Positions 4,682 to 54,593 of a stretch of 64,000 bases of DNA are shown in pieces (within the stretch, counting starts at the first letter, position 1; every line of letters begins with the position of its first letter). The translations under genes and the position numbers were made by a program. The notes below the pieces were generated by a model that had not been told where the DNA came from, did no database searches, and saw only the letters and a list, made by a program, of their open reading frames with translations. Origin of the DNA: Halomicrobium urmianum (GTDB lineage: Archaea; Halobacteriota; Halobacteria; Halobacteriales; Haloarculaceae); assembly GCF_020217425.1 (NCBI RefSeq), contig NZ_CP084090.1, forward strand, positions 2,790,001 to 2,854,000, in the 5' to 3' direction.

Positions 4682-4813
4682 CGGAACGCGCCTGTGGCGC
4701 GTTCCGCCTTTTGGCCACCGGGAGAGCTTCGCTCTCCCGAACCGTCGTTCGCTTCCCTCACGAGGACCGCGTTTTTCGAGGAGGGGTTCCCGCAGCGCGC
4801 TCTCCGAGCGCGC
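4682..4813. repeat. Three short perfect hairpins with 3-nt loops
   Basis: Three separate inverted repeats lie downstream of nusG. Stem 4682-4692/4696-4706 is 11 bp with loop TGT. Stem 4719-4727/4731-4739 is 9 bp with loop TTC. Stem 4795-4802/4806-4813 is 8 bp with loop TCC. The first is followed by CCTTTTGG and could act as the nusG terminator. The same architecture recurs at 38451-38658. Confidence 0.6.
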
Positions 4814-35145: not shown

Positions 35146-36114
35146 ATGTCCGAGTTTCCGGACTACCTCGACGTCGACTACAGCGACGGCGAGGGCGAGG
35201 ACCCGGCGGATTACCCGACTATCAACCACAAGATCGAGAAGGCCATCGAGGTGACCAAGGAGGGCCTCGAGCAGTACGAGAACCCGGTCGTCATGTGGAC
35301 CGGCGGCAAGGACTCCACGCTCACGCTCTACTTCGTCAAGGAGGTCGCCGATCGGTTCGACCTGGAGGTTCCTCCGGTCGTCTTCATCGATCACTACCAG
35401 CACTTCGACGAGCTCATCGACTTCGTCGAGCACTGGGCCGACGAGTGGGACCTGGAGGTCATCTGGGCCCGCAACGAGGACGTCGGCGAGTACGTCGAGG
35501 AGAACGACCTCGAGCCCGGCGACGACATCCCCGTCGACGCACTCTCCGAGCACAACCAGCACCACATTCGGAACATCCTCGAGTACGAGGACGAGGAGTT
35601 CCCGTTCCTGCTGGACACCTACGTCGGTAACCACCTGCTGAAGACGGTCGCGCTCAACGACGCGATCGAAGAGCACGACGTCGACGGCATCATCTCCGGC
35701 GTCCGCTGGGACGAGCAGGAGGCCCGCGCCGACGAGACGTTCTTCTCGCCGCGCCACGACCCCGACATCTACCCGCCCCACGACCGCGTCCAGACGATCC
35801 TCCAGTTCGACGAGCCCGCCGTCTGGGACGCGTTCTGGAACTTCGTCGTCCCGGACACCGTCGAGGAGTTCCCGGACGAGGGCTACGTCCCCGAAACGGA
35901 CGACGACCTCCCCGGGAGCGTCGAGCAGGAGGACGTCCCCGTCTCGCCGAAGTACTTCGCCGGGTTCCGCTCGCTCGGCAGCGAGGTCAGCACCGACAAG
36001 GCCGCCGAGGAGCCCGCATGGCAGCAGGACCTCGAAGGCACGACCGAGCGCGCCGGCCGCGCCCAGGACAAGGAGGACCTCATGGAGCGCCTCCGCGACC
36101 TGGGCTACATGTGA
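35146..36114 (+). CDS. Phosphoadenosine phosphosulfate reductase family protein
   Basis: A 322-residue PP-loop protein. The nucleotide-binding motif MWTGGKDSTLTLYFVKEV (SGGKDS type) is at about residue 50, followed by VVFIDHYQHFDE and GVRWDEQEARADE, typical of the PAPS reductase/CysD-like superfamily. A CysH-type catalytic Cys near the C terminus is absent, so assimilatory reductase activity is doubtful; it may instead transfer AMP or handle sulfur differently. The gene ends 12 nt before the tnpB remnant, so the mobile element inserted immediately behind it. Confidence 0.85.
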   Translation: MSEFPDYLDVDYSDGEGEDPADYPTINHKIEKAIEVTKEGLEQYENPVVMWTGGKDSTLTLYFVKEVADRFDLEVPPVVFIDHYQHFDELIDFVEHWADEWDLEVIWARNEDVGEYVEENDLEPGDDIPVDALSEHNQHHIRNILEYEDEEFPFLLDTYVGNHLLKTVALNDAIEEHDVDGIISGVRWDEQEARADETFFSPRHDPDIYPPHDRVQTILQFDEPAVWDAFWNFVVPDTVEEFPDEGYVPETDDDLPGSVEQEDVPVSPKYFAGFRSLGSEVSTDKAAEEPAWQQDLEGTTERAGRAQDKEDLMERLRDLGYM

Positions 36115-36250
36115 CTTCCTCCCAACCTACTCGCTCACCGCTGACGCGGTTTGCTCCGTGAGGGTGGGACTTCCTGCTTCCACGACGCGCTTTGCAGACA
36201 CCGAATCAGTGTCCGTAGGGAGCGCAGTCTCCACAGGCGTTGATTCGGGA
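36115..36250 (-). ncRNA. Candidate omega/reRNA-type guide RNA at tnpB 3' end
   Basis: For IS200/IS605 and IS1341-type tnpB genes, the 3' end and downstream edge encode a non-coding RNA that guides TnpB; sense-overlapping RNAs of this kind are known in Halobacterium. The segment here holds an ACCGC/GCGGT stem at 36137-36150 and the conserved tail of the gene. The element is broken, so expression is uncertain and the boundaries are approximate. Confidence 0.35.
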
Positions 36251-36539
36251 CAGCCCGTCCCTACTTGTTCGAGGCCGCGAGAAAGGATGTTCCACGATGC
36301 ATTCGCATCCCTGTCCGCTTCAAACCCACACGACGGACACGAATGCTCGCGCACCCACAGCGGTTTGTCCGTCTCTGTTCCGCACGACGCGCACTCTTTG
36401 GTCGTGCCATGAGGGTCCACGGCGGCGAAGTACGTGCCTTCCCGCTCGCACTTGTATTCGAGCATTCTGAGGAACGTCCCCCACGAGGCCCCGGCACGGT
36501 TCCGAGAATTACCGGGAAGTTCGACCAATCCCTTCATGT

Positions 36540-37390
36540 CTGCTTTATTGAATCCGGGGACGGCGGGCAGATAGCGTCGCTGTGAAGGTCGAAGCGAAGC
36601 GGAGAGGGGAATGTGCCTCAACTCCTTTCCGCTTCGTTACACAAGCGGCGTCGCTAGCTCAAAAGCGCTGTGCCGCCAGCCCCACGGCGGTGGTGAGCGA
36701 CCCGGCTGGCAGCGGGTTTGCCGGCTGGAAGCATCTGACGCTGCACTTTCTGCGGGTTCACATGAGTGCGAGCGACGCGGAAATCGTCGACTGGGCCAGT
36801 GAGATAGACCGGGTGCGCGGTCTTGTAGTTGGCCCGCTTCGAGTTCCCGGCACCCTCGACGCTGTGGCATCCGGCCGAACGGAGTGCGGCCGGGCTCGTT
36901 GGACGAGCGTGCGAGTCCAACGGCGGTCGTTCGAGCGGGTGCCGACCCGCATCTGGCGCCAACTGCTCGACCGGTCAGCAGCCCGCTGCGATCCCGGCGA
37001 CTCGGCACACTGGCCCCACGATACCCGGGTGGGCCGTCAGGTTGCGCTGCGCAACACCGACAAAATAGAGAGTCTCGCCGGCGACAACGGCTATGACGAC
37101 CAATCACTGCGGGACGCACCCCGTTCAGACGGCGTCCGGCCAGTGATCAAACATCGGCTGTTCGCCCACTACGACCACGCCCACAACGCACGGTTGGACA
37201 GCGATCTTTACGGGCAGCGCTGGCTGGCCGAGAGCGCATTCTCGGCCATCAAACGCCGATACGGCTCCGCTGTCAGACCGGGCGTCTGGTACCGAGCGTT
37301 TCGTGAACTCGTGCTTACCGCCGCAGTCTACAACCTCGAGCAAGCAATCAAAGAGTGATCCCTACGCTGTCCGTGGATTCAATAGAGCAG
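36540..37390 (+). mobile_element. Decayed IS5-family element inserted in tnpB
   Basis: An 851-bp insertion bounded by 16-bp terminal inverted repeats with one mismatch (CTGCTTTATTGAATCC at 36540-36555; complement of CTGCTCTATTGAATCC at 37375-37390). The flanks TCATGT (36534-36539) and TCACGT (37391-37396) look like a target duplication with one later mutation. Precise removal together with one flank copy restores the tnpB frame. Confidence 0.82.
36582..37358 (+). pseudogene. IS5-family transposase remnant with internal deletion
   Basis: The C-terminal half is recognisable as a haloarchaeal IS5 transposase: LAGDNGYDDQSLRD (second Asp), RPVIKHRLFAHYDHAHNARLD, ESAFSAIKRRYGSAVRP (catalytic Glu) and FRELVLTAAVYNLEQA. 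Upstream, LTLHFLRVHMSASDAEIVD and FERVPTRIW match the N-terminal part. The segment expected between them, with the first catalytic Asp (DSTGFDR-like), is missing, and the beginning is degenerate. The frame happens to be open, but the product would be inactive. Confidence 0.8.
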
Positions 37391-38213
37391 TCACGTCCAA
37401 ATCCTCGACCGCTACAAGGTCGTACTCGCGGGCGTAGTACGCCGAGAGTTTGTGCAAGAAGTCTCGCCGCTTGCGCCTCAGGTCGGCGTGGCATCGAGCG
37501 ACCGTCTTGCGCTGTTCCTCCCAATTGTTTGAGCCGTGTTCCTTCCGTGAGAGGTTGCGTTGAGCGCAATCCAACCGCTCGCGTTCGTCGGAAAGGTCCG
37601 GCGACCCGACGGCGGTTCCATCGCTGTCGTGGACGTATTTGAGGATTCCCACGTCGATGCCAACTGCGTCAGTCACTTCGTCGGGCTTCTCGGGTGGGTC
37701 GTCGGGAGTTTCGATGCCAAAGATGGCGTACCACTTGCCGGTGGGTTCCCGTTTGACTGTGACGGTCTTGATGGTGGCGTCGTCAGGCAGGTCGCGGTGG
37801 AAAGTGATGGGAATGTCACCAATCTTCGAGAGCCATAGTCGAGTCCGACCACTCGTGTTTTTGAGCTCGAAGCCGGACTGACTATAGGTGAACGATTGGT
37901 ACTCACTCGGCGCTTTCCACTGCAACTCCCCGACGCTGTAGCCGTTCTGCTTTCGGCCTTTGAGCGTCGAGAGGTTGTCGTACAACCGCTGGACGACTTT
38001 CTGCAACACCTTCGAGTGAACGTCTCGCAGGTCAGTCCACCAGTCTTTCAGGTCCGGTAGGCGTTTCTGCTCGGGGTACGCCGACGTATCGTCGTGTCTG
38101 TTGAGGCGGTGGAGGAAATGGTTGTAGACCTGCCTACAGGTATCGACAGTCCACGCTAATCGCTCGCGGAGATCGTCAGTCGGGTTCAATCGATACCTGT
38201 AGTTGTAGTTCAT

Positions 38214-38357
38214 CTATTCGTCGTCGGGGTCAGAAGTACGGACGACCTTCACGTCCGCGCCACGCCAGCGTTTCGGGACATAGACGTGAGCGCCGTTGCC
38301 GGTGGCTTTCACGTCGCCGTTCACGACTTCATGGCCGTTGATTGTGAACTCATCCAT
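38214..38357 (-). CDS. DUF2080 family transposase-associated protein
   Basis: A 47-residue protein, MDEFTINGHEVVNGDVKATG then GAHVYVPKRWRGADVKVVR. The VYVPKRWRG-x-x-VKVV block looks like a SpoVT/AbrB-type swapped-hairpin DNA-binding strand. It is the known small partner encoded directly before tnpB in haloarchaea. Its TAG stop is followed immediately by the tnpB ATG. A longer frame upstream crosses hairpin repeats and is not credible. It appears intact although its tnpB is broken. Confidence 0.85.
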   Translation of the reverse strand: MDEFTINGHEVVNGDVKATGNGAHVYVPKRWRGADVKVVRTSDPDDE

Positions 38358-38450
38358 GTACGATGTAGATACATTGTTGAGACTGATAAAAGTGTCTGTT
38401 GGCCTGTGGATCTGTCGTTGCAGAGTGTGCGTGAGATGATAACGGGCGTT

Positions 38451-38658
38451 GTCAGATTCCATCGGAATCTGACTGCCAATCAGAAATCTTCGATTTCTGA
38501 TGACGTTGTATCCCCGCCCTACTGCGTCCTCAGAACGCTTCACGTTCTGACGTGCGAACGAGAGCTCCGCTCTCGTTAGCTACTCGGTCACTTCGTTCCC
38601 TGTGTTGTCGTCCGAAAATCGAAGATTTTCGTGATCACGAGAGAGCTACGCTCTCTCG
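38451..38658. repeat. Cluster of six short hairpins, mostly with 3-nt loops
   Basis: Stems: 38451-38460/38464-38473 (loop ATC); 38479-38488/38492-38501 (TTC); 38530-38537/38543-38550 (5-nt loop); 38557-38565/38569-38577 (TCC); 38613-38620/38624-38631 (GAA); 38638-38646/38650-38658 (TAC). All lie within 208 bp upstream of the DUF2080-tnpB pair. Stem sequences differ, but size and triloop are shared. Confidence 0.75.
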
Positions 38659-38852
38659 ACCGACTCCTTGAGGACGGGGCATTAGTGCCTGGTTTTCAGG
38701 TAAGCCGGCGAACGGCCGTTCTACTCGACGCCCGCTTCTCTTATTCTGCCGCTCTCGAAGACCGCCTCGCAGGCGCTCGTCTGGTCAGACGGTCGGGACC
38801 ACCGCTGACGTCTTCACTGGCCGCCGAGTCACTGCCGTCGGCGGTCACCGAA

Positions 38853-40217
38853 TCACTGCCGTCGACGGTCGCGGACGGCGACGGCTGCCTCCGCGGCGAA
38901 CCACAGCGCGACGGCGGCAGCGGCCGCGAGGACGAGCGCCGCGTCGAGCGGGGACGCCCACGCCGGGAGCGCGAAGAGGGTACCGTGCAGGAGAAGCGGC
39001 GGGACCGTCGCCACGAGCCAGTGGGCGGGATCCACGTCGTCGAACGGCGACGCCCGCTGGGACTCGTAACCGAGCCGGGCCACGCTCGCGCCGCAGGCGC
39101 GCTCGTCGCCCGTCCCGAGCACCTCGACGTCGTAGCTCCCAGTGGGGGCGGGACGCGACCAGGCGACCGATCCGTCCGGGCGGACCGCCAGGACGCGCTC
39201 GCCGTGCGAGTCGGCGATCACCGTGGTTCCATTCGGGAGGCGGTCGGCGTCGCGGGGCCACAGGAGGCGCTCGTCGGTCCAGGTCCACGACTCGACCCAC
39301 TTTCCGCCGGACTCGTCCGGCGACGTTCGGCTCGCGTTGATCGCCCCACTCCCGTCTTCACGCTGGTACTCGACGACCCGGTTGTTCTCGGAGTCGGCGA
39401 CGAGGACGGCGGGACCGCCCCGCTCGGGCGGGATGTAGTCGGGGTTGTGCTGCTCGTACAGCTTGTCGTGGTCGCCGTCCTCCCCGAGCGTCCAGTCCTC
39501 GAGGAGCCCCCGTCCGGGCTCGACGAAGATCACCTGATCCTGGTTGCGCAGGCTGGCCATGACGACCTCGCCGCCGTCGATCTCCACCAGCTCCACGTCG
39601 TTGAGGTGCGTCCAGTCGGAGGGGTACGCGCCCCCGCTGTCGGGCTCGTAGACCTCGCTGACCCGCCACTCCCAGATGACTTCATCCGCCTAGGTGTCGA
39701 TCATGTACACGCGGTCGGGGTAGCTGATGTCGGCGACCAGCAGGACCGACTCGTTCACGCGGTCGACGTCGTGGATCTGCGTCGATCCGTTCCGGCGGTG
39801 GTACAACTCGTGGACGGCCTCGCCGTCGCCGGTCGACAGGTTCACCCGGCGAACGACGTTCCGGAGGCAGTCCTCGCCGCCGCACCGGTGGTCGTCGACC
39901 GCGTCGCTCGCGACGAACTTGACCGTGCGAGCGCCGGTCGGCGTCGGGTCGACGTCGTGGTAGAGAGTCAGCGAGTCGTTCCGGTACGCGACCAAGCCGT
40001 TCGGTCCGTAGGCGACGATCTGTCCCGGCCCCGTTCCGTCGACGGTCGCGACCAGGGTCCGGTCGCGCTCGCCGTCGGGGACGGCTGCGGTCGCTCTGGC
40101 CGTGTCGCGGTCCGTCACGGCCGAGGCCGCCAGCGAGGCCACCGCGAGGAGGCACACCACCAGCGCGAGTCCGCGCAGGTGACGACGATCCAGCGGGACG
40201 AGAGAACCGTCGGGCAT
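38853..40217 (-). pseudogene. Arylsulfotransferase (ASST)-like membrane protein gene with one in-frame amber codon
   Basis: A single frame of 454 codons encodes an N-terminal membrane helix (GLALVVCLLAVASLAASAV), a beta-propeller-like domain and two C-terminal helices. Motifs such as STQIHDVDRVNESVLLVAD, SDWTHLNDVELVEIDGGE, EQHNPDYIPPERGGPAVLV and SENNRVVEYQR fit haloarchaeal arylsulfotransferase-like proteins. Codon 176 (39690-39692) is TAG, splitting DRVYMIDT from ADEVIWEWRVSEVY. Coding character is unbroken on both sides and no other lesion is seen. It may be a very recent pseudogene or a sequencing error. The 190 nt behind it (38659-38852) contain no gene. Confidence 0.82.
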
Positions 40218-54513: not shown

Positions 54514-54593
54514 TAGTAGAAATTGAACGCACTGACACACTCGAGGGGCACCCCGGGTGCCCCTCGATGTGTAAATAGTTTCAATTTCTACTA
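54514..54593. repeat. 80-bp nested palindrome
   Basis: Outer perfect 14-bp arms TAGTAGAAATTGAA (54514-54527) and its complement (54580-54593) enclose an inner 13-bp stem TCGAGGGGCACCC (54541-54553) with its complement (54555-54567) around one central base. The arms are AT-rich and the inner stem GC-rich. The left arm lies directly before the ATG at 54512, so it can also serve as that gene's promoter. Confidence 0.8.

Follow-up and report, generated by a model that had tools for sequence, protein, structure and literature searches.

Small mobile repeats of about 110 bp, with inverted ends and without target duplication, have been described from Haloquadratum walsbyi, where their mobilization was called enigmatic (PMC3119063). 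One group of these, SMR-A (HqIRS42, HqIRS43, and HqIRS55), is reported in the accessible part of the same paper to have a strong preference for the near-terminal palindromes of IS605-type elements and PATEs (PMC3119063). In the literature searched, which lay largely outside subscription journals, the accessible part of PMC3119063 was the only source found for haloarchaeal repeats of a similar kind, and no description of a class-wide haloarchaeal family with the anatomy reported here was found.

The window, i.e., the whole stretch of 64,000 nucleotides of the Halomicrobium urmianum genome that was analyzed, was reported in a first-pass annotation to contain a row of six inverted repeats at 38451-38658. 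All six are present, five with a 3-nt loop and one with a 5-nt loop, and their stems are perfect over 8-10 bp as claimed, one of them reaching 12 nt at 92%. The accompanying statement that the stems are unrelated in sequence is wrong: a sequence search of 38400-38700 against the whole genome gave 28 matches at E <= 0.001, the row itself and 27 further places, the stem CGAGAGAGC(NNN)GCTCTCTCG occurs 18 times in the genome with 0 occurrences of a backwards control, and 17 of 39 intergenic triloop hairpins fall within matches to one repeat family. The row is made up of three modules of two hairpins each, situated in the leader of a tnpB element of IS605/IS1341 type, and at least one module is a copy of a mobile element some 60 nt long. 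Scores below refer to R1, a covariance model built from 32 units, whose training rows match by construction. The features at this locus are as follows.

38608..38663, minus strand: module (a), TCGGT-hairpin-TGATCA-hairpin-GACGA, a full family member (R1 73.6 bits over positions 1-58 of 58, the 32 training rows of the model including this module)
38638..38658, no strand assigned: first hairpin of module (a), 9-bp stem and 3-nt loop, the stem occurring 18 times in the genome
38613..38631, no strand assigned: second hairpin of module (a), 8-bp stem and 3-nt loop
38527..38579, minus strand: module (b), a triloop hairpin (38557-38577) and a hairpin with a 5-nt loop (38530-38550)
38451..38501, no strand assigned: module (c), two triloop hairpins
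37362..38213, minus strand: N-terminal part of tnpB (OrfB_IS605; Pfam PF01385 and PF12323)
36127..36621, minus strand: C-terminal part of tnpB (zinc-ribbon/TNB domain; Pfam PF07282)

The row thus lies upstream of a tnpB in two parts. Between these, at 36622-37361, a DDE_Tnp_1 transposase frame is present on the opposite strand, so that one insertion sequence apparently landed inside another. The leader was aligned with the corresponding ones of Haloarcula amylovorans (L103) and Halobacterium salinarum (L133). All three leaders have module (a) at the same position; module (b) is absent from the leader of H. amylovorans and represented by a single-hairpin trace in that of H. salinarum, and the place of module (c) is occupied in both by a hairpin pair of different sequence. 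Judged from this alignment, module (a) is a member of the two-hairpin family, module (b) is probably an inserted distant relative of it (R1 match at 38524-38582, 21.5 bits, E 0.0086 in 464 kb), and module (c), whose hairpin pair has no R1 match, is probably the tnpB element's own leader structure. Folded as single-stranded DNA, module (a) forms two triloop hairpins, with z values of -3.8 and -4.2 for the two strands. A search for an empty version of its site gave only a short local likeness (in L143), and Rfam gave nothing up to E 1 for 36000-39200.

The family unit reads T(C/G)GTT-hairpin-T(G/C)ATNA-hairpin-AAC(G/C)A and is mostly 56-62 bp long. Its two hairpins are inverted relative to each other and its two ends are nearly alike, which makes it nearly symmetric; the commonest form, both strands counted, is GTCGTT-hairpin-TGATGA-hairpin-AACCAC. 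Across the collected loci 158 distinct copies of the CGAGAGAGC(NNN)GCTCTCTCG stem were examined, with 7 at locus edges left out. The pattern GT(C/G)GTT-hairpin-T(G/C)AT fits 150 of the stem copies with at most two mismatches, and 143 of these with at most one. In these 150 the two variable bases outside each hairpin covary, being G:C in 87, C:G in 60, and another combination in 3 (147/150 paired). The loop letters are not fixed: the same stem carries, in one reading, the triloops GAA (55), TTC (29), and AAA (23 of 150), with a bias toward GNA (66) and TNC (35 of 150). The stem copies thus favor C(GNA)G and C(TNC)G loops; extra-stable C(GNA)G DNA triloops were considered as the driver and rejected, since AAA and other loops are common, and the bias is given here as an observation only.

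Copies with four hairpins, about 108-120 bp long, also exist; their outer hairpins are 57-146 bp apart in 20 cases, 18 of them within 57-66 bp. Four-hairpin composites were seen at L029, L028, L044, L046, L082, L102, L117, L125, L140, L167, and L186, with outer ends as in the two-hairpin unit and an inner hairpin pair of several kinds. Some units (at L034, L035, L040, L047, and L197) are surrounded by larger dispersed repeats of ~130-290 bp with ends like AACAGCCAGAAAGCCCC...GGGGCTTTCTGGCTGTT.

Small hairpins of this type are in excess in this genome. A scan had been proposed to ask whether they occur at chance frequency in intergenic DNA, and they do not. The window alone contains 13 triloop hairpins against 4.8 in shuffles, and a 464-kb sample (the window plus 20 stretches of 20 kb from this genome, with genes called by a home-made codon score) contains 39 perfect intergenic triloop hairpins where 4.5 are expected, i.e., ~9 times as many, and a mild excess in coding sequence (35 vs. 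24.5 expected). These counts rule out a chance origin of the hairpins. Intergenic hairpins with 4-nt loops (18 vs. 4.0 expected) are also overrepresented in the sample, and perfect ones with 11-nt loops were observed 16 times (2.0 expected), so the triloop excess is the greatest in number and is not unique. The two-hairpin family accounts for a good part of the triloop excess of this genome. Another 12-bp palindrome with a free triloop, TCGAGGGGCACC(NNN)GGTGCCCCTCGA, was noted 10 times in the genome (0 for its backwards control), at 54541-54567 in the window, at C1:546862, 1164991, 1330069, 1491723, 1830549, and 2505257, and also on C2 and C3.

The family is widespread among haloarchaea. Its stem, CGAGAGAGC(NNN)GCTCTCTCG, was found in 66 of 116 genomes and 16 of 22 genera of the same taxonomic family, and in at least 120 stretches of the GTDB species collection, where the matches listed are all haloarchaeal by title except for one Euryarchaeota MAG and one Microbacterium. 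R1 matches 222 of 242 haloarchaeal genomes, representing 68 of the 73 genera of the class (copy counts per genome in this survey are lower bounds, with only 23 candidates scored in each), and in a phylum sample it matches 20/20 members of the class and 0/100 others. This genome gave 78 strand matches, merged by hand into 42 places, or ~38 when the halves of four-hairpin copies are joined. The window unit is also matched by 22 plasmid records, with haloarchaeal names throughout among the matches listed; phage records gave no match to one four-hairpin copy. On a plasmid of Haloferax larsenii a family unit and the start of an annotated tnpA overlap, this tnpA and a DUF2080 gene being divergent. 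On a plasmid of Halovenus salina the overlap of a unit is with a transposase gene adjoining tnpA, at its 3' end.

The first-pass annotation had also proposed a test for association with IS1341-type elements and had pointed to a second group of the same type, three hairpins at 4682-4813 beside another gene taken to be degraded. The association stands for the window copy and for several insertions in IS605-type palindromes, but only 1 of the 42 family places in this genome has a match to the C-terminal part of tnpB within 3 kb, and of its 5 tnpA loci just 1 is preceded by a pair of triloop hairpins. The second group contains one relative:

4699..4744, minus strand: degenerate partial relative of the family (R1 28.8 bits, E 1.2e-4 in 464 kb), of which only one hairpin aligns well

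Its neighbor is not evidently a degraded gene, being Spt5 with both expected Pfam domains present.

The insertion sites point to mobility. The site GCCTCGGGGTCAAGCCCCGAGGC, located in IS605-type palindromes, is empty at several loci of this genome, filled with 54-58 bp at two others (L045 and L062) and in other genera, and occupied by a four-hairpin version at L082. For 88 units (one unit nested in another, L016, being left out), the two 30-nt flanks were fused and searched in the collected loci, and a candidate empty site, defined as a hit that spans the junction with E <= 0.01, was obtained for 39, although several of these are weak (84-89%) and some are gapped. Exact matches reach 60/60, 52/52, 44/44, and 42/42, and ~12 attain 90% over at least 40 nt. 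Many insertion sites are themselves repeats and the empty sites are therefore often paralogous, the candidates being mostly other repeat copies or other species rather than strains. A filled site equals the empty site plus exactly the unit, and the target is not duplicated. In a case within the genus, an insertion of ~290 bp containing a unit is present in L197 and missing from this genome (L012). The target CGNNG↓C is found at 50 of 75 asymmetric units, with the flanks not forced, compared to 1.1% of intergenic positions, and the +2 base of the target is G in 56 of the 75. A stem of at least 6 bp is present at the junction in 9 of 89 unit sites vs. 23 of 1256 control sites; that every insertion might be into a hairpin loop was considered, but with 9/89 this is not general. 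From these data we consider it probable that the two-hairpin units are non-autonomous mobile elements that insert precisely and without target duplication. The earlier suggestion that the hairpins are scars of single-strand transposition came near to this, but the units are complete, have conserved ends, and prefer a target, and are not scars. Replication slippage, also suggested, leaves the conserved ends, the preferred target, and the clean empty sites unexplained.

The fold itself is maintained. Pairing was counted in 18 units (17 distinct), each 58 nt long: 98.9% of the cells pair, with 49 cells changed on both sides and 0 on one side only, and no more than 28-54% pair once the partners are displaced by 1-3 columns. 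Because these units were selected to share the first stem unchanged, the information comes from the outer pairs and the second hairpin alone. Three of five shuffle measures (cells paired, double-change cells, and covariation score) were never reached in 500 shuffles; the other two do not exceed the shuffles (double-change pairs, 157/500; further pair types, 455/500). The outer 2-bp helices suggested by covariation were not predicted by folding for the minus strand of the window unit and two other family units. The two-sided stem changes, together with the precise insertions, bear out the initial remark that something selects or generates the structure.

Among described systems, the nearest relatives are the small mobile repeats of Haloquadratum (PMC3119063), against which the family is set by description only. 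As described in the accessible part of that paper, SMR-A elements are likewise short and non-coding, have inverted ends, cause no duplication, and insert into near-terminal IS605-type palindromes, and their size of ~110 bp matches the four-hairpin units (~108-120 bp) (PMC3119063). Unlike SMR-A, again by description only, the commonest form here has two hairpins and 56-62 bp, and the preference for IS605 palindromes is partial, with some palindrome insertions at a minority of sites (9/89). Small mobile repeats in the Haloquadratum sense are too short to code and have inverted terminal repeats that no known transposon shares. The family units have in common with them the absence of target duplication as well as inverted ends, here T(C/G)GTT/AAC(G/C)A. 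PATEs of Haloquadratum are also non-coding, with palindromes near their ends and no target duplication, but according to the same partial source they lack inverted terminal repeats and carry variable tails outside the palindromes (PMC3119063); in the units, conserved inverted ends adjoin the hairpins. Bacterial REPINs or REP doublets with RAYT are, as far as the accessible text of the sources goes, similarly mobile and intergenic, each consisting of two short palindromes in inverted order, and their mobilization in trans is ascribed to Y1-type transposases (PMC3733652; PMC3116915, PMC2817692). In contrast to these, the units have the flanks GT(C/G)GTT and T(G/C)AT with no GTAG or CGTC tag at the foot (PMC3733652, same restriction), free triloops, a class-wide distribution in haloarchaea, and no dedicated transposase linked to them in this genome. 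Two Haloquadratum plasmids, one of them reportedly free of small mobile repeats, gave no significant match to R1. In the 1.64 Mb searched, no inverted half-units had a spacing above 146 bp and below 3 kb, as an autonomous parent might, and no transposon shared the ends of the unit.

The ends of IS200/IS605 elements are polar, with guide and cleavage sequences that a Y1 TnpA cuts, and contain hairpins whose short flanks pair with each other at the foot; these elements have a preferred target and leave no duplication. The units resemble them in the hairpins with pairing flanks, seen here as the covarying base across the foot, in the preferred target, and in the lack of duplication; they differ in being nearly symmetric and in carrying no gene. 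Lack of target duplication and hairpin ends suit HUH enzymes, and the absence of duplication, the short preferred target, and the location of the ends at the hairpin feet fit single-strand HUH transposition, the mechanism that fits best. The moving form would then be single-stranded DNA folded into the two hairpins, which a HUH-type nuclease would read and cut at their outer feet, i.e., at the ends of the element, with insertion falling between the G and C of CGNNG↓C. We propose that stem and loop sequences could drift because mainly the fold and short flanks are read. The nuclease would most likely be a Y1 TnpA supplied in trans by IS605-type elements, or an enzyme related to it, a step to which we give about an even chance. 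Y1 TnpA was detected in 166 of 242 genomes, in 159/222 carriers vs. 7/20 non-carriers (Fisher p 0.0017, with genomes counted as independent and kinship ignored); 63 of the 222 carriers are without a detected Y1 TnpA, which, with the near symmetry of the units, leaves it a candidate enzyme. The same two facts, the second set against the polar ends of IS200/IS605, also favor mobility by another enzyme, such as a plasmid Rep-like HUH protein, a tyrosine or serine recombinase, or a housekeeping structure-specific nuclease, a reading only somewhat less probable than its negation. An enzyme outside the HUH group sits less well with the absent duplication and the hairpin ends, and no candidate gene is at hand from a gene search that covered PF01797 and PF07282. 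IS605-type elements of Haloquadratum show strain-specific insertions despite almost all tnpA being broken, according to the accessible part of the source (PMC3119063), which again favors a non-Y1 enzyme. It is possible, although rather doubtful, that the family as a whole represents class-wide, gene-less elements of 56-62 bp with little fixed sequence, defined by a fold at whose outer feet the elements end, and inserted at CGNNG↓C by a non-Y1 enzyme, perhaps a structure-reading nuclease; if true, this haloarchaeal nuclease would be one not yet linked to transposition.

Explanations without mobility are far less probable. The paired changes suit RNA as much as single-stranded DNA, the copies are intergenic, and a few follow T-runs, so that the hairpins might be terminators, processing signals, or stability signals under selection in the transcript. 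However, such a terminator needs no conserved flanks, target preference, or empty sites, the loop letters vary, and gene context and orientation are unbiased: 0 of 44 examined units from the GTDB loci lie inside a called gene, 39 units flanked by genes stand between tandem (20), divergent (12), and convergent (7) pairs, compared to 51, 33, and 16% of intergenic space, and relative to tandem genes 8 have the same and 9 the opposite orientation. A function in RNA is on this basis improbable, and the suggestion of processing signals in a long leader is disfavored for the family by these same counts. Intergenic placement without strand bias is what one would expect of a mobile element for which only intergenic DNA is a tolerated location. 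An origin in place by template switching or snap-back synthesis at stable triloops, with the family likeness as a secondary effect, would be in line with the perfect stems and the many C(GNA)G loops, but the same stems and flanks recur across many genera and exact empty sites exist, and we regard it as the least probable of these readings.

The defined ends, the target preference, and the empty sites of the probable mobile units make mobilization directly testable in laboratory haloarchaea. The family also warns against taking intergenic hairpins of this kind for terminators or regulatory RNAs. Small mobile repeats were known from one species, and a similar family is now found in nearly all sampled haloarchaeal genomes.
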